Shown one piece after another: positions 1,276-32,228 of a DNA stretch of 64,000 nucleotides (its first letter is position 1; the number at the start of each line of letters is the position of its first letter). The notes under the pieces were generated by a model, which was given only the letters and a program-made list of their open reading frames with translations, was not told the DNA's origin and made no database searches. Where the stretch lies: positions 248,001-312,000 of the forward strand of contig CAMFLR010000004.1 of assembly GCA_945957605.1 (NCBI GenBank), written 5' to 3'. Position numbers and translations under genes: made by a program. The stretch comes from an uncultured Isosphaeraceae bacterium (GTDB lineage: Bacteria; Planctomycetota; Planctomycetia; Isosphaerales; Isosphaeraceae).

Positions 1276-3491
1276 AAACGGCTACCATCGTCTCCATAGC
1301 GGTAAATCGCATCGGACGTTTCATCTTCAGGTTCTTCATTGCCTTGCGCTCGGTTGTATTCTCGTACTTCATGCTCTTGAGCGTTCCGGCGGTCAATCTC
1401 GGCTTTTACGCCGATCTCCTGAAGTTTCGCGGCTTGCTCGGCCCTCAGCTTTTCGATGTCGAGTTGATGCTGAAGCAGGAGTTTTTTGGTGTCAGACTCA
1501 TGTTCCAGTTGCATTTCTTGCTTCTTGCGAGCAGCCTCAGCTTGCTGCGAAACAAGGTCTTGCTGTGCTTGAGCCTGTTGTTGAGCCTGAGCTACTTTCG
1601 CATCGTTTTGAGCCCTAAACTGCTCAAGCTGCATTTCTGCCTGCATTTTCTGCTGCTCGATTTGAGCCTGGGCTTGGGCCTTGGCTGCTTCGGGATTCGG
1701 CTTCTGAGGAGGCGGTTTATCCATTCCCTCCTCGATAACGTCTTCTACTTCTCTTCCAAGCTTGAACCGGCGCAGGCAGGAAAGCAGAATTTTCTTCGCG
1801 GAGTCCAAATCAATAACTCCGTTTTCAACCGCTGGGCCGATGTCCTTCATGAACCCACCGATGCCTTGGACAAGCTCAGTGACTTGTTCTCTTTCTGCTT
1901 CTTGATCCGCCGCGATGGTTGAGTCTGTCTCGATGTCGATGCGGTAGCGTCGCAGGGCATCACTTTGAATGATCTGCATTACTTGTTCCCAGGAAGGTTT
2001 CTGAAGAACCGCCTGGAGCTTCGGATCAAGTTGCGGGGTCTGCCCTGTTTGTTGGGCGGCTAACTGAGCCTGCTGAATTTGCATCTGCGCCGCTTGCTTA
2101 TCTGCTTCAAATGGAAGCTGAATGTCGGTTATTTGAGACAACACTTGCGGCGTGTAGTTCTCGGCGATGATCTCGGTCTTTTTCCTTACCAAGTCCCGAA
2201 TGAAGCGTTGAACCTCGCGTTGCTTCTTCTGGATGCGTTTACCACCGGTTTGAGCCTTTAGCTTTTGCGATCCAAACGGCTCGTCCGGGTCAGTCTGCCC
2301 CCGGAGAATGTCACCTAAACCCGTCAGTTCAAAAATGGTCTGCTTTACCTGTTCGCGGTAGACTAACAAGGTCTTCAAGATGTTCGCCGCCTGCTCAATC
2401 GGCAGCATGTAGATAGCTTTATCCAACCCACCCATGTTCATCGCCGTCTGGGCGGTGGACGTAGGAATCATCTCGTTATCCTCGGCCTTCAGGAGTTCCT
2501 TAAACTCACTGATGGTCGAGTCGTAAATGCCGCGTTGTTTTAGTGTCGACACAAGTTTGCCGATTCGCATCGTCACGCGGTCGAGTTCCTTCGCCTGGTC
2601 GCGGTAGAGCTCGAACTCAACCTGGGGGACAAGAGTTGTTGCGGTCTTCACCGCGTAGAGCGGGCGCGGGCAGTCAAAGAAGCCTTCCAGGTTCAATTTG
2701 TCGTCCTCAACGGCGAGGAAGTTCGTTATACATGACGGCGCTAACCACCTGACCTTTAACGTCTGCTTGTCCCAGATTTCCCAGACACGAACACGTTTGA
2801 ATATCGATGGTTCGGAATCGGCGACTTTCCTGTCGACACCTTCCATGACAACGTCGTAATCGACCTTGGAGCCGAAGCCGGGGAATTTCTTATCGACTTC
2901 TCCCCGTGTCAGTTGGTGCTCGTAGGCGATCCACGGGACTTCCTTCCAGGTAAAGCCCGGCCCCCTGCGGAAGCGGTCCCAAGGCACATGCTCGCAATAG
3001 GTGCGGGCATATGTCATCTCCTCGAAAGAATTTCCTTCTCCGTCCTCGCTCTCGGTTATCTCCGGCTCGAAACGTACACGGGCTACGCCACGGGATGGGA
3101 TGCAGTAGTTATATAAAACACTTTCGATCTCCTCGTCAAAGTCGTAAGCGTCGATGGAATACTCGACGGCGCGCTCTAAAACCTCGGCGGCGATACGTCC
3201 AACTGGGTCGGCGTCCTTAAACCTCCGCCGGATGTCGGCTTTGGGAGGTGTGGAGTAGAGCAGGGGCATAATCGTCTCAACGTTTGCCCAGTAAACGTTA
3301 AAGCTCCATTCCTTGCGTTCCTTCTCGTCGCGGAAGCGTTCGATGGCTTTCTGGCCCTTCTTCCGCCATTCCTTTTCTGTCTTTCCCGCAAGCTCGATCT
3401 CCATCAAAAAGCGGTTAACCTCTCCCGCCTCTCCTTTGCCGGCGTCTTCCGGCTTCTCGATCTGGGCGTCCTCGGTGGTTAAGTCCTGCAT
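1272..3491 (-). CDS. Phage portal protein
   Basis: A 739-aa protein immediately downstream of the terminase large subunit, overlapping its stop by one base. Size, the early segment on the handling of head assembly (WSFNVYWANVETIMPLLYS near residue 65) and the gene order TerS-TerL-portal fit P22-like portal proteins, which form the dodecameric DNA entry ring at one capsid vertex and dock the terminase. The last 200 residues are unusually rich in Gln, Ala and charged residues (many KAQAQAQ-type runs) and should form a long helical barrel or coiled coil, as in long-barrel portals. Family assignment is by pattern and synteny rather than by a catalytic motif. Confidence 0.8.
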   Translation of the reverse strand: MQDLTTEDAQIEKPEDAGKGEAGEVNRFLMEIELAGKTEKEWRKKGQKAIERFRDEKERKEWSFNVYWANVETIMPLLYSTPPKADIRRRFKDADPVGRIAAEVLERAVEYSIDAYDFDEEIESVLYNYCIPSRGVARVRFEPEITESEDGEGNSFEEMTYARTYCEHVPWDRFRRGPGFTWKEVPWIAYEHQLTRGEVDKKFPGFGSKVDYDVVMEGVDRKVADSEPSIFKRVRVWEIWDKQTLKVRWLAPSCITNFLAVEDDKLNLEGFFDCPRPLYAVKTATTLVPQVEFELYRDQAKELDRVTMRIGKLVSTLKQRGIYDSTISEFKELLKAEDNEMIPTSTAQTAMNMGGLDKAIYMLPIEQAANILKTLLVYREQVKQTIFELTGLGDILRGQTDPDEPFGSQKLKAQTGGKRIQKKQREVQRFIRDLVRKKTEIIAENYTPQVLSQITDIQLPFEADKQAAQMQIQQAQLAAQQTGQTPQLDPKLQAVLQKPSWEQVMQIIQSDALRRYRIDIETDSTIAADQEAEREQVTELVQGIGGFMKDIGPAVENGVIDLDSAKKILLSCLRRFKLGREVEDVIEEGMDKPPPQKPNPEAAKAQAQAQIEQQKMQAEMQLEQFRAQNDAKVAQAQQQAQAQQDLVSQQAEAARKKQEMQLEHESDTKKLLLQHQLDIEKLRAEQAAKLQEIGVKAEIDRRNAQEHEVREYNRAQGNEEPEDETSDAIYRYGDDGSRL

Positions 3492-4960
3492 TAATCCTCG
3501 TCACGGCGTTTCCTCCGGATGTGATCCTGGAGCATTTGGTTAAGAGTGGGCGGAGCAGGCGGCTGCCAGGGCTCGGACTTCTCCGGCTCCTTAGCCGCCA
3601 CCATCTCGGCCAGCATCCGACCGAGGAGTGACATCGCGTCCACCTGGTCGTCGTGCTTTCCGCTGTCGAATTGCAGTAGCTCGCGGATCAGGGGCTCCGT
3701 CCACTCGGCATGGCGGGGGAAGTAGACTTTCTTCTGGGCCATTCTCCCGCGAATCGCCTGAGCCCGCGTCGGCTTGTCGGTGGCGGATGAAAACTGCTTG
3801 CGGTAGCAGAAGGCCTTCCGCTCCGCCTGCCGCTTGGTGATGAGCGGGTCGAGGCTCTTCAATATCTGCCCCGATTCCTCGGCCCATTGCAGGGGCCGAT
3901 GGCGGAGGATCAAGTCGAGCAACGCCTCAACCCATTCAAGCGAATCGGTGCGTCCTCGCCATAAGTCAGTCAGATAAATATCGTCGTTCGGATCGACCCC
4001 GGCCACAAGATGGACGGTGTAATCCCCGCCGTCAGCGGTGACTGCGTAGTCACTCGCTCCGTACATCCGGAGGTGTTTCGGAAGCTGGTCGTAGTAACAA
4101 ATCCACTCCCGCTTAAAGAACTCACCATCCTCGGGAACGGGTCGTTGTTGGTACAACGCTGTCCAGTCGCGCGTGCCGATGGCTCGCTTGATCCGATCCA
4201 AAGCGTCAGCCGGGTACGCTTCGGGCCAAAGCGGCTCGGCGAGGTCTCGCCCTAACGGATCGTCCGCTTCTGCCAGAGCCGGAAGACTCAGGATCGTCCA
4301 ATCCTCGTGGGCGTGATCCGATTGAAGCCACCCCGTTAAGTCGTCTTCATGCCATCGTGTCTGGATTACTACAACTTTGGCATCCGGCATGAGCCGGGTA
4401 TAGGCGGTAGAGGTGTACCAGTCCTTGTTGCGCTTGCGGATCGTCTCACTCTCGGCTTCTTCCCGGTTTTTCACGGGGTCGTCGATGAGCAGAAGGTGGG
4501 CGCCGCGACCTGTTAACGGGCCTCCAATACCCGCTGCGAAGTAAGCTCCGTCCAATTCTGTGGAGAGGCTTTCTCCGCCCTGCGAGACGTGGAATCGTTT
4601 ACTGCTCTTGCTATCACCTTTAAGGCGGCATCCGGGGAAAATTCCCTGAAAAGTCGGATCGGCAATCTGATCGCGGACTTTTCTACCAAAGTCGTCCGCC
4701 AGTTCCTGGGCGTACGTTGCTGCGATGACGTAATGGTTGGGGTTTCTCCCCAAGTACCAGGCAGGAAAGAACTCGCTCGCCAGCATGGATTTTCCATGTC
4801 TTGGCGGCATCGAGATCATCAGGCGTTTAATATCGCCACGTTCAACCGCTTCAAGGTGGCGGGCGATGAGCAGGTGGTGCCTTCCTCGCTGATAGCTCGG
4901 CCACTGGTAGGCCGCGTAGGCGATCAGCCGTGAGAAGGCGAAGTCTTCAGGAGTCGGCAC
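3491..4960 (-). CDS. terL: Terminase large subunit (packaging ATPase/nuclease)
   Basis: A 489-aa protein with the two-domain terminase layout. The ATPase half has a Walker A-like motif (MISMPPRHGKSMLASEFF, about residues 47-64) and a Walker B motif (LLLIDDPVKNREEAE, about residue 155). The C-terminal half has acidic residues typical of an RNase H-like nuclease, ending with KHDDQVDAMSLLGRM. The enzyme pumps DNA through the portal and cuts concatemers. It overlaps the small-subunit gene by 14 bp and the portal by 1 bp, a classic packaging cassette. The class with PPRHGKS is common in phages and gene transfer agents. Confidence 0.92.
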   Translation of the reverse strand: MPTPEDFAFSRLIAYAAYQWPSYQRGRHHLLIARHLEAVERGDIKRLMISMPPRHGKSMLASEFFPAWYLGRNPNHYVIAATYAQELADDFGRKVRDQIADPTFQGIFPGCRLKGDSKSSKRFHVSQGGESLSTELDGAYFAAGIGGPLTGRGAHLLLIDDPVKNREEAESETIRKRNKDWYTSTAYTRLMPDAKVVVIQTRWHEDDLTGWLQSDHAHEDWTILSLPALAEADDPLGRDLAEPLWPEAYPADALDRIKRAIGTRDWTALYQQRPVPEDGEFFKREWICYYDQLPKHLRMYGASDYAVTADGGDYTVHLVAGVDPNDDIYLTDLWRGRTDSLEWVEALLDLILRHRPLQWAEESGQILKSLDPLITKRQAERKAFCYRKQFSSATDKPTRAQAIRGRMAQKKVYFPRHAEWTEPLIRELLQFDSGKHDDQVDAMSLLGRMLAEMVAAKEPEKSEPWQPPAPPTLNQMLQDHIRRKRRDED

Positions 4961-11963: not shown

Positions 11964-12833
11964 TCAGTCTTTCGGCTGAAGGCCAAACAGATAATCGGCA
12001 CTCGCTTGGGCCTTTGAGGCTGCCGAGAACAAGTATTTGGGGTCTTCCTTCATCGCGGCAACCCAATGTTTGATGTAAGCCGCGTGTTCCCCCATGTCAG
12101 CGGGGGCGATTCCAAGGGCGGCACAGACGAAGACGCTGGAAAGTTCGGCAACGATCTCCTCGCGCGCGTACTCGTCCTTGGTCGGCTTCTCGCACTTGAT
12201 GCGGCCGAGACGGTGCATCGCACCTGTCCAGTGCGAAAGCTCGTGGAGGGCTGTCCCTGCGTACCCTTCCGGTGACTCGAACGACTCGAAAGGGGGAAGG
12301 GTGATCGTATCGTCGGAAGGGCGGTAGTAAGCGGAGCCCCCGGCGTGCTTGATAACGGCGGCGGTGTTCTTGATGAACGTGTCAGCGTGTTCGATCCGTT
12401 GCGACGGGTCTAGCGGGTGCTCGGGCTTGGTCTGAAACTTCTCGGGAAGGCCGCTGCACTGGTCAGCGTTGAACACTCGGTAGACCTTGGAAATCCAGAA
12501 CCGTTCCTCTCCTTCCGTCCCGTCGTCGGCGGTGTCTTTCTTGGTGATTGGTTCACACCAAAGGATGGCGGTTGATTTCTCGCCCTTCTTGACGCATCCG
12601 CCGTACTCAATGGCTTGTTTGAACGTGAGCCACGTTGACGAGGCGTAACCCATCAACTCGGCCTGAATCCACAAAATGATCGTGTTCACGCCACGGTAGG
12701 CCACGCCGGAATGACGAAGGGGGAGGAAACCACCTCCGGCTACCCACGGCTTACGCCAGGGGGGAAGGTTGCCAGCCTCAAGAGCGTTGACGATCTGTGA
12801 AGTAACTTCGGTGTACAGGTCTTTTGCAGTCAT
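11964..12833 (-). CDS. ardC: ArdC-type antirestriction protein (ssDNA-binding domain plus zincin peptidase)
   Basis: A 289-aa protein starting MTAKDLYTEVTSQIVNALEA at 12833; AAGGGG seven bases upstream decides the start over a 53-residue upstream extension. The N-terminal part with LPPWRKPWVAGGGFLP and YRGVNTIIL is the ArdC/DUF1738 single-stranded DNA-binding domain. The C-terminal part has the zinc metallopeptidase signature HELSHWTGAMHR (HExxH) with a downstream Glu (EEIVAELSSVF). ArdC proteins coat incoming plasmid DNA and counter restriction during conjugation; some phages carry them too. A complete, intact copy. Confidence 0.88.
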   Translation of the reverse strand: MTAKDLYTEVTSQIVNALEAGNLPPWRKPWVAGGGFLPLRHSGVAYRGVNTIILWIQAELMGYASSTWLTFKQAIEYGGCVKKGEKSTAILWCEPITKKDTADDGTEGEERFWISKVYRVFNADQCSGLPEKFQTKPEHPLDPSQRIEHADTFIKNTAAVIKHAGGSAYYRPSDDTITLPPFESFESPEGYAGTALHELSHWTGAMHRLGRIKCEKPTKDEYAREEIVAELSSVFVCAALGIAPADMGEHAAYIKHWVAAMKEDPKYLFSAASKAQASADYLFGLQPKD

Positions 12834-12963
12834 GAGAATCCCCTTGTTCGCTTGAATGGCCGCGCCGTTCAAAAGCGAAAGGGGGACGAAAGTCCTGATT
12901 AATAAAATCGGTGAATTGGTCAAGGGGCAGGCTAAAAACTGCACACGCGAAGCACGGAAGTTT

Positions 12964-13191
12964 TTAGAGTGAGCGGAGTGCCCCTTTACCAAGAGGGCGA
13001 GAGCCCTTTTTCAAGCTCGTTCCGTTATGCCGCTCTTCTAAATACCGCTCGGAAAGGCTCCGAAGCTCTAAAGATTCGCCAATGTGGGATTCAAGCCAAT
13101 TCACAAAGTCGCTGATGATTCTGCGGCTTTCTTCCTTCGCCATGAAGCTGTTGCGGTAATTCGCCTCGTTCATAAAGCCATCAGTCTGCAT
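12964..13191 (-). CDS. Small helical protein, unknown
   Basis: Up to 75 aa. A start at the ATG 13191 overlaps the upstream gene by 11 bp; the later ATGs (13173, 13143) are possible. The core FVNWLESHIGESLELRSLSE looks helical, then the tail is basic. Function unknown. Confidence 0.5.
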   Translation of the reverse strand: MQTDGFMNEANYRNSFMAKEESRRIISDFVNWLESHIGESLELRSLSERYLEERHNGTSLKKGSRPLGKGALRSL

Positions 13192-21892: not shown

Positions 21893-22180
21893 ATGACTGA
21901 AGCATTTTATATTCACAACATGGATGGGATTCGTATTCAAAACTTCATCCCAACACGTGACGGAGCGATGCGAAGGGTCGCCGCAGATTATAACGGGTTT
22001 GCTGTTTCCTACCACGTAGCGGAGGACGATGAAGGAAAACTGTATCTGCGTCCTGCGCTGTCAATTATTTGCTGTGATCTAGCCCTGTCCGAGACATTGC
22101 AGGGAGCGGGGCTCAAGATCCTTCCGCATCTGCCATGCTTACCATTCATCGAAGAAAAAGAAGTTCATAACGGAGACTAA
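21893..22180 (+). CDS. Small phage protein, last of the early operon
   Basis: A 95-aa protein (MTEAFYIHNMDGIRIQNFIP), mixed alpha/beta, no recognisable motif. Followed by the oppositely oriented HEPN pair. Confidence 0.55.
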   Translation: MTEAFYIHNMDGIRIQNFIPTRDGAMRRVAADYNGFAVSYHVAEDDEGKLYLRPALSIICCDLALSETLQGAGLKILPHLPCLPFIEEKEVHNGD

Positions 22181-22210: not shown

Positions 22211-22735
22211 CTATCGCCTAAGTACGCTCTTTAAGAAGAGTTCGGTAAGAAATACACCTGACGAAGGATCGCCTTGGCATGCGGCCCAATCTGCAAACGC
22301 GCCTTCGGCTATCGTAACCCTATAGTCCGCATCAACGTGTCCTAAGGGAGTAGTAGTATCGTAGTCCGCGTCGTGTCTCGCCTGTTGTAAATCAACGAAA
22401 GTGAGTCCGATGTCGCGGAGTTGCGGTGCTATCGCGTTACCCCTCAGTGTTACTACGCCTCCCGCTCCGGTAACTGCATTAGAATAATCTTGGCACACTA
22501 ACCTCATCTTACCGTGATCAAGTGAGCGAGAGATGCGCGATCGCAGAGTGGCATCGGCGATGATCCGCGTCATACACTCATGTATAAGTAAGTGAAATAA
22601 TGCATAATATGCCGTAGACACACCCCGCCGAAGGTCCACTTCCATCGGAAGGGCGACCACAGGAGCGCCTGGTGTAATAGGAGCTGGTGGAACTAATCTT
22701 CTCGCGAGTCCAAGCAGATCGTCATGTAGTGCCAT
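22211..22735 (-). CDS. HEPN-domain protein, likely RNase or its regulator
   Basis: A 174-aa protein with the hallmark segment LRRGVSTAYYALFHLLIHEC (residues about 34-53). Helix-rich HEPN domains carry an R-x4-6-H catalytic motif; here RISRSLDHG (residues about 66-74) has R-x6-H spacing. ARHDADYDTTTP after that resembles the family's third helix. Small HEPN proteins next to a second gene usually form toxin-antitoxin or abortive infection systems that cleave RNA. It overlaps nothing and lies 4 bp downstream of its partner at 22740. Confidence 0.75.
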   Translation of the reverse strand: MALHDDLLGLARRLVPPAPITPGAPVVALPMEVDLRRGVSTAYYALFHLLIHECMTRIIADATLRSRISRSLDHGKMRLVCQDYSNAVTGAGGVVTLRGNAIAPQLRDIGLTFVDLQQARHDADYDTTTPLGHVDADYRVTIAEGAFADWAACQGDPSSGVFLTELFLKSVLRR

Positions 22736-22739
22736 TTGC

Positions 22740-23648
22740 TCAGGCCGTCTTGTATTCCATGGATGTCTTAAGCCTGACGTAGGGCCATCTCTGGACCCCT
22801 TCCGCCGAGAGCGCCTCTCGAATCATCGGAATTATCTGTGACGCGAAGCGCCCATATTCCGCTCGCGAAATGCTTCCATCCACGAAAACATTCACCCAGA
22901 TTGCAGCTTCCCCTGACTCGCTGCTTCCCAACTCGTAGTCCCAGTTGGCGATCCAAGGGGGGAATTGAACTTTGCGAAGCGCCTTTTCGACCTTGTGAGA
23001 CTCTTCCGAAGTAGGGAGATATGGTTCCAGGATATTGAGAATCGCCTGGAAGACGACGGCAGCGTTTCCGTATTGTTCTCTTGTCGGAGCCTTGTCCGGA
23101 GACAATTCGCTTGACAGCTCCTTGAACATTTGTATCGTTTTAAGGAGTTCCAATTGTCGAGCAGAGTTTAGTTCCGGGAAGTCTGCCGCATTAAACCCTT
23201 GCACGACTTTTGGAGTGAGCCAAAGCGCGCCACGAGTCATCGCGTCGGCGATCGAATTTACGTCGGCAACCCCGCTTTGGGAAGGAGCCCGTGAATGAAC
23301 GAAAAGGTTTCGCGCGACACGAAACGCAGCAAGAAACTTCTCCTTGGACACCTGGTCCGGAACGTCGAAGACATGCGCGACCAAGCCATGCTCGACGAAT
23401 ACCGCGAGAGGTTTTTCTCCCTCGAAGTACAACAAGAACTTGACGCCATGAATCGCCGATTCATCGGGGTACCCCCAGGAACCACCCCCCTCCATAGTTG
23501 CGCTCACTACCAATCCATCCTTAAAACGCAACTTGCCTGGGTACTGCGCCCCGCTAGCCGTCAGGAAGGTAACTGCAACCTCTCCGTCGCCCTTCTTAAA
23601 CTTTCCCTGGTCATCAAAGAGGCTGCGAAAAATGCCTGCGTCGGACAT
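22740..23648 (-). CDS. HEPN partner protein, unknown family
   Basis: A 302-aa protein whose stop is only 4 bp before the HEPN gene, so the two form an operon. The first 130 residues are beta-rich (VAVTFLTASGAQYPGKLRFK, LVVSATMEGGGSWGYPDESA, HGVKFLLYFEGEKPLAVFVE). The C-terminal part has EAAIWVNVFVDGSISRAEYG and RWPYVRLKTSMEYKT. I recall such C-terminal ends only as companions of small HEPN proteins, possibly sensor or antitoxin. Family unassigned. Confidence 0.62.
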   Translation of the reverse strand: MSDAGIFRSLFDDQGKFKKGDGEVAVTFLTASGAQYPGKLRFKDGLVVSATMEGGGSWGYPDESAIHGVKFLLYFEGEKPLAVFVEHGLVAHVFDVPDQVSKEKFLAAFRVARNLFVHSRAPSQSGVADVNSIADAMTRGALWLTPKVVQGFNAADFPELNSARQLELLKTIQMFKELSSELSPDKAPTREQYGNAAVVFQAILNILEPYLPTSEESHKVEKALRKVQFPPWIANWDYELGSSESGEAAIWVNVFVDGSISRAEYGRFASQIIPMIREALSAEGVQRWPYVRLKTSMEYKTA

Positions 23649-23834: not shown

Positions 23835-24818
23835 ATGCTCACCGTGCAGTCCCGAAAGAATGCTGGCGATACAAAGGACTATTTCAGGCATGAGGAACGC
23901 CTGGAGGGCAAGGAAGCTCGGCCACCGCAGTGGTTCGGCCTAGGGGCTCTCCGCCTCGGTCTTCAAGGGCTGGCTGATCGCCTAGTTTTCAACCGCCTGG
24001 TTGATAACAAGCTCCCCTCGGGAAAGGGAAAGATCACCCCCCGGCGGGGTGAGAACAGCATCGTTCTTCAGGAATTCGTGTTCAACGCTCCGAAGAGCGT
24101 CTCGCTGGCTGCTGAGTTCGCTCCGCATGGCGAGAAGGTGCGAGAAGCGTTTGTCGCGTCTGTCCTCGAATCGATGGGGGAAGCCGTCGAACCGGGGGCG
24201 GCGACACGCGTACGGGTGAAAGGAGCGATGGACGACCGTAAGACCGGCGAGATTACCGGCACGCTTTTCGTCCACTCAACCAACCGTGAGCAAGAGCCAC
24301 ACCTCCACGCACACGCGACCGTTCAAAACCACACTTGGGATTCTGCGGAGGGGAAGTTCAAAGCACTCAAAGTCCACGACATTTACAAATCCATTCCTGA
24401 TATCCAGCGGGATTTCCACCGGCGGCTGAGACAGAAAGTCGAGCGGCTGGGCTATCAGACCGAGCGGAAGGGGAAATTCTGGGAAATCTCTGGCGTCTCG
24501 AAGTCCACACTGCGGAAATTCAGTTCCCGGCGCAACGCGATAGAAAGGCTCTACGACGCGGTTGCGAAAGTCACGCCGGGGTTAAGACGTAAGGCGGGGC
24601 TAATGACGCGGGATAAGAAACCACAGGTCACGGACCTCGGCAAGCTGAAAGAGGATTGGGTCAGTCTGCTGACTCCTCGTGAGATCAAAGACTTCCGCTC
24701 TCTCGCGGCTAAACCAAAGACGGGCAGGGGGCTGGAACGGAACAAATCGCGAGTTGCGCAGTTGCGGCAACTGTCTTACGATATCGCTGCACCAACGAAG
24801 GACCGCTCCCGTGGATAA
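23835..24818 (+). CDS. MOBF (TrwC/TraI-like) relaxase, nicking domain only
   Basis: A 327-aa protein with a TrwC-type start MLTVQSRKNAGDTKDYF (catalytic-position Tyr at residue 16), the segment LQEFVFNAPKSVSLAAEF of the relaxase fold, and the metal triad HLHAHATVQNHT. It is far shorter than full TrwC/TraI (about 950-1750 aa): the C-terminal helicase half is absent. Such relaxases nick oriT and pilot the strand to the coupling protein. The N-terminus is complete. The 8-bp overlap with the next gene marks an operon. Confidence 0.86.
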   Translation: MLTVQSRKNAGDTKDYFRHEERLEGKEARPPQWFGLGALRLGLQGLADRLVFNRLVDNKLPSGKGKITPRRGENSIVLQEFVFNAPKSVSLAAEFAPHGEKVREAFVASVLESMGEAVEPGAATRVRVKGAMDDRKTGEITGTLFVHSTNREQEPHLHAHATVQNHTWDSAEGKFKALKVHDIYKSIPDIQRDFHRRLRQKVERLGYQTERKGKFWEISGVSKSTLRKFSSRRNAIERLYDAVAKVTPGLRRKAGLMTRDKKPQVTDLGKLKEDWVSLLTPREIKDFRSLAAKPKTGRGLERNKSRVAQLRQLSYDIAAPTKDRSRG

Positions 24819-25179
24819 ACAACGCGACTGGAACGCAATCGAGTCCGACGACGCCGTGGACACGCTGGGACAGTATTCGCGGCCCCGCAAGCATCAAGTC
24901 CTCGCATTCTGGGCGATCACGAACGAAGGAAGGCGGTGGTATATCCCGTTCTCGTTCCCCGGCCCGCAGGATACCGGGAAATTCGAGTCGGACACATTCA
25001 CGTTGAGGTTTCAGGACCAGCTTGGCTCGAACATGGTTTTGACGATGGTCGCGAACAAGAACAATCTCAAGGAATTCGAGCGGCTGATAACGTATCTCGG
25101 CCTTGGAACGCTCGACATGATCCGCCCGCATCCGAGCTTGATAAAGTCGATCACCGTCGAGGAAGACTCAGAGGCTTGA
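24811..25179 (+). CDS. Small protein coupled to the relaxase gene
   Basis: A 122-aa protein from a GTG at 24811 inside the relaxase 3' end (8-bp overlap). It is beta-rich (KHQVLAFWAITNEGRRWYIP) and ends in an acidic tail. May be a relaxase accessory or oriT-binding partner; unknown family. The last bases overlap the convergent gene at 25168 by 12 bp. Confidence 0.6.
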   Translation: MDKQRDWNAIESDDAVDTLGQYSRPRKHQVLAFWAITNEGRRWYIPFSFPGPQDTGKFESDTFTLRFQDQLGSNMVLTMVANKNNLKEFERLITYLGLGTLDMIRPHPSLIKSITVEEDSEA

Positions 25180-25620
25180 TTGGTAAAACTCCATCGGCGG
25201 TAACTTGTTCTGCTGCCTGAGCATGTCGCCTAGCCGTCCGAAGACTTCCATGGCATGTAGCGTTGTTTGTTGAGGCTGATCGCCCTTGAACATCACCCAG
25301 CCCTTGCTTTGGACATCGTACTTGAACTGCTTCCCATTAAAACTCTGCTCAACGAACCAATCCTTGATGCGTTGGCCGTATTCCGTCCCTGGATAAGGCG
25401 CACAGCTATCGTCAAACCGGATGACACACCGGCTATCGCGTGCATGGAAGTGGATGCTTCCATTCCCAACAACGATGTTTTTTGCGTAACCGTCTGTCCA
25501 TTTTCCACGTGGACCGGTGGGGGGTGTTTTCTCGGCTTTGATTTCCTGAACAATGGGAAGCTCTTCCAAAACCGAGGAAAGCAGGGCAGGTTCATCGGTG
25601 GTCTTACGCTTACGGGCCAT
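25168..25620 (-). CDS. Leftward hypothetical protein, 150 aa
   Basis: Start at the ATG 25620 (MARKRKTTDEPALLSSVLEE); the ORF continues upstream but without a clear site. Basic N-terminus, then a possible OB-like or beta part (GNGSIHFHARDSRCVIRFDD) and a helical end (LHAMEVFGRLGDMLRQQNKL). Its convergence with the relaxase partner gene is unusual in this otherwise rightward region. Function unknown. Confidence 0.55.
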   Translation of the reverse strand: MARKRKTTDEPALLSSVLEELPIVQEIKAEKTPPTGPRGKWTDGYAKNIVVGNGSIHFHARDSRCVIRFDDSCAPYPGTEYGQRIKDWFVEQSFNGKQFKYDVQSKGWVMFKGDQPQQTTLHAMEVFGRLGDMLRQQNKLPPMEFYQSSL

Positions 25621-25804
25621 TCCCACTGCGATAGCACGACATATAACAATAGTCAAAAACTTACCACATTTGGATCAATGGCGATGTTGCTCATTATAAA
25701 CATTGCCAGATTTCCCAGCGTGGTTTCCCAGTGACTGCGAAGCCAAGGAATTGACTTCACTGACTGTTGCCGTAAATTGATATTGTTTGATCCATCGCCT
25801 ACCC

Positions 25805-25922
25805 TACCGCCCACCCAACTTGGCCCTCGGCTTTGATGCCAAGGCGGGTGGAATTATTGGGCATCGATAAGTCGACCGAGAACTTTACCCAGCAATGGGT
25901 AACGTCCTCGGTCTTTTTTTTT
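25805..25922 (+). ncRNA. Candidate structured RNA ending in an intrinsic terminator
   Basis: A first hairpin pairs CCACCC..CTTGGC (25811-25824) with GCCAAG..GGGTGG (25838-25851). A second pairs GACCGAG (25874-25880) with CTCGGTC, with an inner TTACCC/GGGTAA stem, and runs directly into eight or more T. No reading frame covers the first hairpin. Could be a small RNA, an antisense copy-number-type RNA, or a leader of the gene at 25954. Confidence 0.55.
25874..25922 (+). terminator. Intrinsic terminator
   Basis: Stem GACCGAG/CTCGGTC with a nested TTTACCC/GGGTAA stem, followed by a long T run to 25922. One of the clearest terminators in the element. Confidence 0.8.
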
Positions 25923-25953
25923 GCCCCTGTTCCACCTACTTCGGAGATTCAGA

Positions 25954-26271
25954 ATGCGTCAATTCTTCGATGCCGAGGCAGACTCTGAAAGGACGCACAC
26001 GAACCGGCCGGCTTATCGAGTCTCTAAGAGGAATGGTCTTTGCGACGTGCTCTGGCTGACAGAGAAATCTTATCTTAGGAGGCATCGGGTGCCAACAAAC
26101 TTCGCAAGTCTCCATGAATCGCTTGTACGGAGACAAACTCAATTCGATTTTCTACCAGAAAGGACGCCCCAACTACAATTTCGCTGCGTAGAGCTACCCG
26201 TCCAAGAGGCTCAGCCCGACGTTAGATCCAAACGTATACATCGCTGCGATATTTCGTCAACGCGACGTTGA
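25954..26271 (+). CDS. Doubtful ORF after the terminator
   Basis: A 105-aa frame from the ATG 25954 (MRQFFDAEADSERTHTNRPA), with GGAG nine bases upstream. Arg/Thr-rich and without clear secondary structure; nothing else is coded here. It may be an antitoxin-like small protein, or chance. Confidence 0.35.
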   Translation: MRQFFDAEADSERTHTNRPAYRVSKRNGLCDVLWLTEKSYLRRHRVPTNFASLHESLVRRQTQFDFLPERTPQLQFRCVELPVQEAQPDVRSKRIHRCDISSTRR

Positions 26272-26442
26272 AAAAAAGAGAGACGCGCGCGTCGGGCCGA
26301 AGAGTCGCAGTTCATGCCTCGCGATAGATGCGTATGGGAAATAGGAGGCGTAACCTCATAGCGTCTAATCGAGAGAAAAACACGTACTGCCTTTCTATTA
26401 GCTCTCAGTTGCCAACGAACAACTCCCCTAGGAGCACCCACG

Positions 26443-27210
26443 ATGCAGATTCCCACCGCGCAGATTTCCGTCAAGTCGTCCCGCGAATCCCTACGGGAGA
26501 AGACAGTCCAGGCCATCATGGCCGCCCAAGGACGAGGCGATCCAACGCCCAACATCAAGGTCGGCAAGCTTACGGACGGGCTCTATCCGCTGATTTTCGG
26601 CGAACATCGCCTTGAGGCGTTTAAGCGTCTGGGCAAGACGCACATCGAAGCCGATGTGGTAGACAGGCCGCTAACCGACGCGGAAGTTGCTGTCGAGCGT
26701 TTCAGAGAAAACCACGACCGCTCGGACTTTTCTCCGCGAGAACAGGCGAATCTGATCCTCACTATCATGCGTGGCGAAGGTATCGATCAGGCAGCCATTG
26801 CTGAGCGTCTAAAAATCTCACCGACGAAGGTGGCGAAACTGTTGAAGGTTTTCAAACGCCTTGCTGCTGACCTCCAGGAAGCACAGGAAGCCGGGAAACT
26901 CGGATTCGCTGAGGCTTACGAGCTTTCTGCCCTCGACGATCATAACAAGCAACGGGAACTTGCCGCCCTTTGCATAAAGGGTGTCCTTGGCCGCGAGGGC
27001 CTGAAGAAAAAGCTCAAGGTCGAACTGGGCGAGCGGGTGAGGAAGTCTAAGCCTCAGAAATTCGACGTCGAGGGCGTCAGCCTTACCGTCGATGGAGACA
27101 TGGATGCTCAAACACTTATCGAAAAGCTCAAAGAGCTGATCCGCCGCTTCCGCAAGGGCGACAAGATCGACGACGAAGACGGCCCGCTCTTCCTGGGCGT
27201 GTCGGCATAA
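26443..27210 (+). CDS. parB: ParB-like partition/nuclease protein
   Basis: A 255-aa protein with a ParB N-terminal domain: the CTPase-like segment LIFGEHRLEAFKRLGKTHIE (compare GERRxxAA), the helix-turn-helix AAIAERLKISPTKVAKLLKV and a helical dimer domain with an acidic end. TAGGAG precedes the ATG. ParB normally pairs with ParA, which I do not find here, so this may serve segregation, transcription control or a nicking role with the relaxase and T4CP next to it. The first residues lack the usual long N-terminal arm. Confidence 0.82.
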   Translation: MQIPTAQISVKSSRESLREKTVQAIMAAQGRGDPTPNIKVGKLTDGLYPLIFGEHRLEAFKRLGKTHIEADVVDRPLTDAEVAVERFRENHDRSDFSPREQANLILTIMRGEGIDQAAIAERLKISPTKVAKLLKVFKRLAADLQEAQEAGKLGFAEAYELSALDDHNKQRELAALCIKGVLGREGLKKKLKVELGERVRKSKPQKFDVEGVSLTVDGDMDAQTLIEKLKELIRRFRKGDKIDDEDGPLFLGVSA

Positions 27211-27282
27211 TCCCTCCTCGGGAATTCACGTCGGATTTATTACGAAGTCCGTACGCTTCCTCACATCGAATGAGGCCGTGCC

Positions 27283-28698
27283 ATGCTGCGCCTATTGATG
27301 GGGATGTTCAAGCGATTTTTGCTCAGTATCGGTCTAGCTCGCGAGCAAATCACACAACAATTCGTTGTCAACGGATTGGTGACCCTTCAGCAAGCATACG
27401 AAGGGATTGTCGTTACTGGGGGGACCGGAGCAGGCAAAAGCTCCGGCCCAATGCGGGAAGCGATTCTTAATCTCTTGCACATGGGCGCGGGCTTCCTCGT
27501 GCTTACGGCGAAGTCCGATGAGATTGAGGTCTGGGAGCGTTATTGCAAACAAACCGGGAGGAAGATGGAGCCGTTCGGCTGCTTCAATTTCCTTCAGCAC
27601 GAAGCTGAGACAGGCGGAATTCAGTCGGCCCGGGGGCTACTCACGGACCTTTACGACGCGATCAACCCCGGTGGGAAGGGCGACGATCCGTTCTGGCCAA
27701 ATTCTGCCCGCACGCTGCTCTCGCACGCGCTTTCATCCTGTTACTTGGGAAAGGGGGAAGTGTCGATTCATGATCTGGTGACCTGGATTTATGACCTGCC
27801 GACGTCTGAGGAGCAGTGGAACGATCTTGGCTGGCGGACCGGGTTTATCGGGTGTTGCCACGAAGGGGCTATGAGCCGTGGCGTGATGAACAAGAACCGC
27901 GACTTCGACAACGCTTTCGATTACGTCCGCGATTTCTGGCCCAAGCAGGATCAAAAAGTCAGAGGCTCGATTGTTGCCGAGGCAATGACAGTCCTTGAGC
28001 CGTTCCTCAATTCGGAGGTCTACTCATTCGTCAATGGGGAATCAACGATCACGCCTTCAGTGATTTCAGAGGGAGGGTGTGTCGTTGTCGGCACGCCGGT
28101 ACTGAAATTTCGAGAGAGCGGACGACTGATAAATATCGCTTGGAAATTAGCCACCCAACGGCATTTGTTGCGGTGCCAATCCAATCGGCCAGTTTGCATT
28201 TGCACAGACGAAGCAAACTGGTTTGCCGTCGCGGGGGTGGATGCTCTCGTTCAGTCCGTCGCCCGGTCGTCGAAAATCGTGAACTTGATGGCCTTCCAAA
28301 ACACACCCCTTCTGAAATCGAGCTTGGGCGGCGACATGGCGGAGACGGAGGTCAATGGCTGGCTTGCCAACTTTCAAAACGTCATTGCCTGCCAGAATGC
28401 CTGTCCAATCACAAATAAGTATTTCAGCACTCTCGTGGGCGAGGAGATGCAACTCACCTTCGGAGGATCATCGGGAGGAGAAGCTTACGATCCGGTCAAG
28501 GACTGGCTCGGCGAAAAGCCCAAGGGATTCAACGCGTCATGGCATCAGCACATGATGCCAATTTTACCACCGAACAAGCTGACGACGCTCAAGAAGGGAG
28601 GCCCAAGCAACAACTTTAAGGTCCAGGCTTACGTCTACTGCGGAGGCCGCAAGATCAATGGGCGAACATTCGCCCTAGCCGAGTTCTCACAGAAATAA
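27283..28698 (+). CDS. VirD4/TraD-type coupling ATPase
   Basis: A 471-aa protein with Walker A VVTGGTGAGKSSG (residues about 43-54), Walker B region VCICTDEANWF (about 306-316) and a downstream Gln-rich AFQNTPLLKSSL segment. These match type IV coupling proteins (TraG/TraD/VirD4), which pump relaxase-bound DNA to the secretion channel. The usual two N-terminal transmembrane helices are missing: the ATPase fold begins by residue 40. The following gene (28761) is a membrane protein that could supply the anchor. No VirB-type transfer channel is visible in the window. Confidence 0.82.
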   Translation: MLRLLMGMFKRFLLSIGLAREQITQQFVVNGLVTLQQAYEGIVVTGGTGAGKSSGPMREAILNLLHMGAGFLVLTAKSDEIEVWERYCKQTGRKMEPFGCFNFLQHEAETGGIQSARGLLTDLYDAINPGGKGDDPFWPNSARTLLSHALSSCYLGKGEVSIHDLVTWIYDLPTSEEQWNDLGWRTGFIGCCHEGAMSRGVMNKNRDFDNAFDYVRDFWPKQDQKVRGSIVAEAMTVLEPFLNSEVYSFVNGESTITPSVISEGGCVVVGTPVLKFRESGRLINIAWKLATQRHLLRCQSNRPVCICTDEANWFAVAGVDALVQSVARSSKIVNLMAFQNTPLLKSSLGGDMAETEVNGWLANFQNVIACQNACPITNKYFSTLVGEEMQLTFGGSSGGEAYDPVKDWLGEKPKGFNASWHQHMMPILPPNKLTTLKKGGPSNNFKVQAYVYCGGRKINGRTFALAEFSQK

Positions 28699-30718: not shown

Positions 30719-30954
30719 GAGACGTGCGTGTAAAGGATGCGGCGAAGCGACTCGATGTCTGTCAATCCACCGTCTACGGGCTCATTGCGGCAGGCAGGTT
30801 AAAGTGCTGCCGCGTTGGGTTGGGACGTGGTGCGATCCGAGTTTCCGAGGAGCAGCTTGCCGCATACCTTTCGAGCGTCGAGTCCGGGGGCGTCACTTTG
30901 CCCCCGGCTCCGCCTTGCCCCCCTTTGAAGCATTTGCGCCCGCGTTCTTCTTGA
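30715..30954 (+). CDS. xis: Excisionase-like HTH protein
   Basis: A 79-aa protein from a GTG. Its HTH (VKDAAKRLDVCQSTVYGLIA) with a following strand pair (RVGLGRGAIRVSEEQLAAYL) is the HTH_17/Xis pattern of phage recombination directionality factors. It ends within the integrase 3' region, so the two genes overlap tail-to-tail by about 60 bp; this may make their expression mutually exclusive. Confidence 0.75.
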   Translation: MRDVRVKDAAKRLDVCQSTVYGLIAAGRLKCCRVGLGRGAIRVSEEQLAAYLSSVESGGVTLPPAPPCPPLKHLRPRSS

Positions 30955-31996
30955 CCGATGGCTTCTTTGGCTTCCCCTCGTCGGACTTGTCTTTCTTGTT
31001 CAACGATTGGGCCATGTATTCTTGGTCGCGGTAGACCTGGGCGTAAACCCGGCTCAGCATCGACGGGTCGCGGTGCCCCATTAAATGGGCCATGGTGATA
31101 ACGTCCACTCCCGCTTTCAAACCCTCGGTGGCGAAGCCTTTTCGGAAAGCTCCCAGGTGGTATTTCACGCCGAGCTTTTCTTTCAAGCGAACGAATACAC
31201 AGTTAATTGCATTCTTGTTCCATTCATTACCGTCGCTGTTGAGAACAATCGGTCCTTCGGGTCGAGCCGCTGCTAAGCGATCCATGATCTCTTGCGCCCG
31301 CTCGTTCAAATAGATCACGCGATGATATTTCTTTCCCTTGGCCTTGGTCGGCGGAAAGACGATTCGTCCTCGCTCGACGAATCGGCCCTCGATCTTTCGA
31401 AGCTCTTGAACGCGCGCTCCGGTTTCCCAAGCCAATTCTAAAAGGTCGCGGAAGGCTCCTGTTTTCATGGCTTCGAGGATCGTGGCGTATTCCTCGGGGC
31501 TGATCGCCATTTCCCGAGCTTCGCGGGCGGGCTTTTTCAGCCGTTCAATCGGATTGCGGGTGATCCGCTCTTCATCGACCGCCCAACTGAAGGGGCGCTT
31601 GATGCAGGTGATGAAGTCGTTCTTGGTGTTGTTGGCCCACTCAAAGTCCGCCATCGCATCGGTGACGTGGTAGGGCTTCAACTCCTCGACCGTCAGCCGG
31701 TCCGGAATGCGGTCAACGAACCGCTGGATGTTTTCTTTGTACCAAGCGTACGTACGAGCGGCCCGGTTCTTTTGAACCCATTCCAAAAAGGCGTCAAGCA
31801 CCTCCACCACGAAGGTGCATTCCCGCTTGGGAGCTTCACGCTCAACCGGCGGCTTGGCCATGAACTCGTGCCAAAGCCGCCACGCCTCGTCCTTGTCCGG
31901 GGAAAGGCGTTGTTGCCGCGTGCCAACTTGGACGTAATAGCAGCTTCGATCCGACCGCCAGAACGGCTCTCGGCTCTGCTTCTTGGGACGGCCCAT
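30893..31996 (-). CDS. int: Tyrosine recombinase/integrase
   Basis: A 367-aa reading from the ATG 31996 (MGRPKKQSREPFWRSDRSCY). The N-terminal arm-binding and core SAM-like domains cover residues about 1-180. The catalytic domain has Arg (WETGARVQELRK), a Lys strand region, HxxR-type motif (YHLGAFRKGFAT), His (LMGHRDPSMLSR) and the nucleophile Tyr in MLSRVYAQVY. It sits directly inside the 3' side of tRNA-Pro, the normal place for an element that integrates at a tRNA end. The tail is Lys-rich (KKDKSDEGKPKKPS). Confidence 0.92.
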   Translation of the reverse strand: MGRPKKQSREPFWRSDRSCYYVQVGTRQQRLSPDKDEAWRLWHEFMAKPPVEREAPKRECTFVVEVLDAFLEWVQKNRAARTYAWYKENIQRFVDRIPDRLTVEELKPYHVTDAMADFEWANNTKNDFITCIKRPFSWAVDEERITRNPIERLKKPAREAREMAISPEEYATILEAMKTGAFRDLLELAWETGARVQELRKIEGRFVERGRIVFPPTKAKGKKYHRVIYLNERAQEIMDRLAAARPEGPIVLNSDGNEWNKNAINCVFVRLKEKLGVKYHLGAFRKGFATEGLKAGVDVITMAHLMGHRDPSMLSRVYAQVYRDQEYMAQSLNKKDKSDEGKPKKPSVKKNAGANASKGGKAEPGAK

Positions 31997-32048
31997 GATC
32001 GGCCTCCAGGCGGCGGACCAGCGCCCGGATTGCGTCTCAAAACGCAAA

Positions 32049-32117: not shown

Positions 32118-32153
32118 ATTGTAGACTCGACGTAAGTCGTTATCTAGTAAGAG

Positions 32154-32228
32154 TCGGGGCGAGAGGATTTGAACCTCCGGCCTCACGGTCCCGAACCGTG
32201 CGCTCTAGCCATGCTGAGCTACGCCCCG
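32154..32228 (-). tRNA. tRNA-Pro (anticodon CGG), element attachment site
   Basis: Minus-strand cloverleaf of 75 nt: acceptor CGGGGCG/CGCCCCG, D-arm with TAGCTCAGCATGGCTAGAGC, anticodon loop TTCGGGA on a CACGG/CCGTG stem giving anticodon CGG (codon CCG, proline), and T-loop GTTCAAATCC. The 3' end faces the integrase. An intact tRNA at the junction implies the element carries the 3' copy, as usual for tRNA-targeted integrases. Confidence 0.93.

Follow-up and report, generated by a model that had tools for sequence, protein, structure and literature searches.

Operons in which an antitoxin gene comes first and a HEPN toxin gene second are known from the HEPN-MNT (HepT/MntA) systems (PMC3710099, PMC4621449, PMC7641770), and type II toxin-antitoxin systems typically have the partner gene ahead of the toxin gene in this way (PMC3710099). 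Other HEPN proteins, namely the HEPN-T proteins of the AF0298 type and AbiV, lack the canonical His and have a conserved alternative one, for which an alternative active site has been proposed (Anantharaman et al. 2013, PMC3710099). AbiV is a lactococcal abortive-infection HEPN protein with a role in phage defence.

The gene pair described here lies in a 64,000-nucleotide stretch of DNA (the window) from an uncultured Isosphaeraceae bacterium. It resembles the HEPN-MNT operons in the order of its genes, but the HEPN-MNT antitoxin is an adenylyltransferase, whereas here the partner has a domain of alpha-beta-beta-alpha-beta type without invariant polar residues. A minimal nucleotidyltransferase partner was not found, as no nucleotidyltransferase model of Pfam or NCBIfam matched and this domain (the C module) has no invariant acidic residues. 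With the AF0298/UPF0332 subgroup of HEPN-T proteins (structure 2hsb) it has in common the fold, the SxxYYAxFH helix, the substitution of R-x3-D-Y for Rx4H and the alternative conserved His (PMC3710099), but no Pfam HEPN model matches here, nor does the partner belong to the minimal nucleotidyltransferases. AbiV is similar in that the canonical His is missing and a conserved His is found at the AF0298 position; no partner gene is listed for it (PMC3710099), whereas an upstream partner is present here. None of the Pfam HEPN or Abi models matched six members of our family up to E=10, which is compatible with a distant kinship to AbiV. The pair is a variant of the HEPN toxin-antitoxin/Abi modules, notable for its modular partner and for a module (M) shared with a second HEPN pair. 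We consider it probable that it works as a type II-like toxin-antitoxin or abortive-infection module carried as prophage cargo, in which C would neutralise the HEPN protein and the other partner modules, M and N, would sense or regulate.

The two ORFs that an earlier note on this DNA had pointed out (174 and 302 aa, 4 bp apart) are borne out by their coordinates (Table 1), and the strings RISRSLDHG and AYYALFHLLIHE that it had quoted are present in the HEPN protein. Its observation that the pair runs opposite to the early genes also holds: the pair is reversed within the early/replication region of a prophage, and + strand ORFs flank it on either side (21893-22180 and 23835-24818). A chance origin of the ORF pair is excluded by its conservation, since 56 distinct HEPN homologues were found, 55 of them with a homologue of C directly upstream. 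Neither protein gave a meaningful match in Pfam, NCBIfam or PADLOC; the HEPN protein weakly matched phrog_5176, a family of unknown function. Promoter and terminator scans at the pair performed no better than on shuffled sequences, and no operator-like inverted repeat was found upstream of it.

Table 1. Features of the HEPN gene pair, its host prophage and the M-X loci (window coordinates unless stated otherwise)
Feature	Position	Strand	Basis or remark
HEPN-family protein, predicted toxin, 174 aa	22211..22735	-	ORF, conservation, AF2 fold, profile
H48 of SxxYYAxFH, helix 2; 54/54 in family	22592..22594	-	homologue alignment
R70-x3-H74, insert between helices 2 and 3; both residues 55/55; H74 a candidate for an alternative catalytic His	22514..22528	-	
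R120-H121-x-A-D124-Y125, long helix; equivalent of canonical Rx4H, D for H	22361..22378	-	
302-aa partner, predicted antitoxin/regulator; gene 4 bp upstream of HEPN gene	22740..23648	-	
N module, aa 1-101, beta-rich, modelled with low confidence; in 4 partners only	23346..23648	-	
M module, aa ~100-228, helical, with W143 invariant; common to second HEPN pair	22965..23351	-	
C module, aa ~215-302, alpha-beta-beta-alpha-beta, universal HEPN-linked domain	22740..23006	-	
Right copy of 55-bp tRNA-Pro repeat bounding host prophage	32150..32204	.	repeat search
Left copy of 55-bp tRNA-Pro repeat	contig C4 225564-225618, outside window		repeat search
M-X loci	L052, L061, L064, L065, L066, L067, L072		M-X partner then HEPN2

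The assignment of the smaller protein to the HEPN superfamily, already made in the earlier note, was confirmed by an AF2 model built with six sequences (pLDDT 88.2, pTM 0.85), which has the two alpha-hairpins of a four-helix bundle. Its top three VIA matches are all HEPN proteins (2hsb, Z 11.1; 1ufb, 9.0; 1wol, 8.8), the best being AF0298 (2hsb, rmsd 3.3 over 115 aligned residues). For helical bundles a fold Z score is insufficient alone, but HEPN chains were matched independently by the sequence profile (9xbd, 1.7e-5; 9xbc; 2hsb, 1.5e-3).

Conservation was counted over the 56 distinct HEPN homologues, taking for each column only those sequences in which it is filled. The canonical Rx4-6H RNase motif is absent from helix 3: at its position stands R120-x3-D124, with Asp where His is expected (R120 56/56, D124 54/56, Y125 54/56, H121 49/56). 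The R-x6-H of the earlier note is literally present as R67 and H74, but R67 varies among the homologues and this reading of the motif was rejected; the invariant residues are R70, H74, R120 and H48. In the model, H74 is part of the helix 2-3 insert, which is situated between helices 32-58 and 104-125. An Asp for His together with a second conserved His in this insert is what characterises the AF0298-like subgroup, and H74 is therefore a candidate for the alternative His of AF0298 and AbiV, judged by position and not by a residue-level superposition. The invariance of these four residues across several phyla suggests that they form an active site. Since the canonical motif is missing, the HEPN protein could also be non-catalytic, binding RNA or another target without cutting it and regulating phage or plasmid genes without killing, much as inactive HEPNs have been proposed to be RNA-binding regulators in MtlR and others (PMC3710099). 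We regard this alternative as rather unlikely, because 54-56 sequences from several phyla all keep R70, H74, R120 and H48, and because in the loci inspected no neighbour gene besides the partner is fixed.

The toxin-antitoxin reading draws further on the organization of the family. The conserved two-gene operon with the partner first that is found in type II systems was observed in 55/56 loci, the only HEPN homologue without an upstream C (L099) being located at a contig end, and in most loci the two genes either overlap by up to 4 bp or are separated by up to 24 bp. The 302-aa protein, which had been taken for a member of an unrecognised family, turned out in a family search to be an extended form of a widespread partner of ~95 aa. 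Among the 55 loci, C stands alone in 32 and is preceded by M in 19 and by both N and M in 4, namely the window and three loci (L040, L042, L053) from two other genomes. In the HEPN tree the window falls in a set of seven rows (SH-aLRT 95) that mixes N-M-C and M-C members, which indicates that N was gained or lost there. A match to the N domain in genome G578 (L041) belongs to a PKD-like surface protein and was judged to be due to chance.

With a mean pLDDT of 66.9, the model of the whole partner is of low quality except in C, which is modelled confidently. The fold matches of C include the cytosolic domains of CDF proteins, KH-like domains and acyl-CoA ligase subdomains, with Z about 8 over ~80 residues; as the CDF match is so close to the others, no functional inference is drawn from it, and the likeness of the whole partner to zinc transporters in Foldseek was discarded as driven by C against CDF C-terminal domains. 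No polar residue of C is invariant, and at the position of the best conserved one, D243, this window has Ser. The C, M, N and X domains (X being described below) were not found described in the open-licence papers searched.

These data bear on the possibility that the roles are reversed, the N/M part of the partner being the effector and the HEPN protein an inhibitor or substrate-binding subunit, as was once thought for MNT-HEPN. The partner is indeed the larger, multi-domain protein here, its M module occurs with two different HEPNs, and N-M-C partners carry RNLFVH-like strings of Rx4H type. Nevertheless, we hold such a reversal to be very improbable, since in 32 loci the partner consists of the ~95-aa C domain only, without invariant polar residues, and neither L062, a member of this clade, nor any of the M-X proteins has kept the RNLFxH string; for this same loss, RNLFVH in M was rejected as a second HEPN site. 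Broken genes point weakly the same way: in 6 loci the HEPN gene is broken and the partner intact, and in one (L091) the reverse is found, numbers that are small and may include assembly errors. A role of the HEPN protein as effector and of C as its neutraliser is favoured by the pairing, the gene order, the invariant residues of the HEPN protein and the non-invariant residues of C. At L074 a frameshifted M-C partner is followed by a protein resembling Mrr-type restriction endonucleases in the place of the HEPN protein.

The M module was also found in a second kind of pair. At seven loci (Table 1) it is fused to another domain, X, instead of C, and a different HEPN protein (HEPN2) is encoded immediately after, the two genes overlapping by 4 bp in several cases. 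HEPN2 has ~152 aa, a TYxxRxxAEFE string and an Rx4H motif of RNx[LIV][VI]H type that is invariant (7/7), and its weak Pfam matches, none of them above cut-off, include several HEPN families. By hhalign no similarity was detected between HEPN1 and HEPN2 (probability 0.1) or between X and C. That M is truly common to both pairs is established by an hmm of M, built without any M-X sequence, which matched the seven M-X proteins with E values of 9e-16 to 2.5e-30 (the best of 980 shuffles gave 0.13), and by an independent single-sequence match to genome G016 (1.8e-8). Because M occurs with two unrelated HEPNs and is yet absent from 32 loci, a regulatory or trigger-sensing role appears likelier for it than toxin binding. 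It is conceivable, though we put it forward only tentatively, that the partner is a modular adaptor in which M, optionally with N, reads a trigger that does not depend on the toxin and is coupled to a toxin-facing domain that can be exchanged, C for HEPNs of AF0298 type and X for canonical Rx4H HEPNs; if so, two unrelated HEPN effectors would be wired to one sensor. In Panacea-type toxin-antitoxin networks one antitoxin module is reportedly common to the partners of unrelated toxins. As far as those networks can be likened by their description, M differs in being common to two HEPN families only and in being located beside, not instead of, the toxin-specific C.

Relatives of the HEPN protein were found on Rhizobium and Acidisoma plasmids, in Rhodospirillales, Terriglobia, a myxobacterium and Synechococcus, and in IMG/VR prophages, and there are many more in genomes of the window's own phylum. 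In the window's class, the pair family was detected in 35 of 397 sampled genomes, and it occurs in several other phyla as well. Many of the Rhizobium plasmids that bear the pair are conjugative, and some plasmid pairs are near AbiE or RelE/ParE genes (L008 and L007, respectively). On one Rhizobium conjugative plasmid, AbiEi/AbiEii genes are found at L008 2871-4614, close to the HEPN pair; beside relatives, proteins resembling DUF1553 and DUF1501 were recognized by reading of the translations, which hints at Planctomycetota. In prophages the pair was located between terminase and portal (L037, L038) or beside an HNH/terminase block (L044). Residence in packaging regions of prophages and on plasmids near AbiE, RelE or ParE genes would suit cargo genes with a protective role for the element or its host. 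When the partner sequence was searched directly against plasmids, phages and the PDB, no match was obtained.

The host element was delimited by the 55-bp tRNA-Pro repeat, for the two copies of which an identity figure of 96% was obtained; its presence at both ends places the pair inside an integrated element of ~54.6 kb. The integrase gene (30893-32047) adjoins a tRNA-Pro(CGG) gene at 32153-32228. Families for a portal, a major head protein, the two terminase subunits, proteins of the tail, an amidase, an endolysin and the integrase identify the element as a prophage. Near the pair are a replication initiator of the NGO0469 family and Gp157, as well as a MobF relaxase, a ParB-like protein, a VirD4-like protein and ArdC. 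The setting given in the earlier note is corrected in that the host element is an integrated prophage with conjugation-type genes as well. In its own right, the prophage (contig C4 225564-280204) is of note as a phage with a full head and packaging set plus conjugation-type genes (window 23835-28698, 3491-4960). Its genes for the MobF relaxase, the VirD4-like coupling protein and the ParB-like protein are located between the replication genes and the integrase, and an ArdC-type antirestriction protein with a zincin-like metallopeptidase domain is encoded at 11964-12992. A phage-specific pair with a role in the lytic cycle or in superinfection exclusion, in spite of its presence in this prophage and on three IMG/VR prophage contigs and of the weak phrog_5176 match, is highly improbable, since plasmids carry relatives too, as do many bacterial contigs that are not known to be prophage, 50,697 GenBank phage records gave no match, and the insertion point varies between prophages.

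The fold, the strict pairing with an upstream partner and the residence on prophages and plasmids thus support the earlier idea of an independent toxin-antitoxin or abortive-infection module. In such a module, the AF0298/AbiV-like HEPN protein would be an RNase or an RNA-binding growth inhibitor, with R120 and H74, and perhaps H121/D124, standing in for the classical Rx4-6H. It would be bound and neutralised by C of the partner encoded upstream, while M and N, which are not tied to this HEPN protein, might sense or transmit a trigger, e.g., a superinfecting phage, or regulate the operon. Upon the action of the trigger, the HEPN protein would be released and the cell halted.

The pairs constitute a family that had not been annotated and that Pfam, NCBIfam and PADLOC do not cover. 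Moreover, the shared M module represents a natural experiment in which toxin-facing domains have been exchanged on a common module, and this exchange gives direct experimental access to the way in which HEPN effectors are restrained and triggered.
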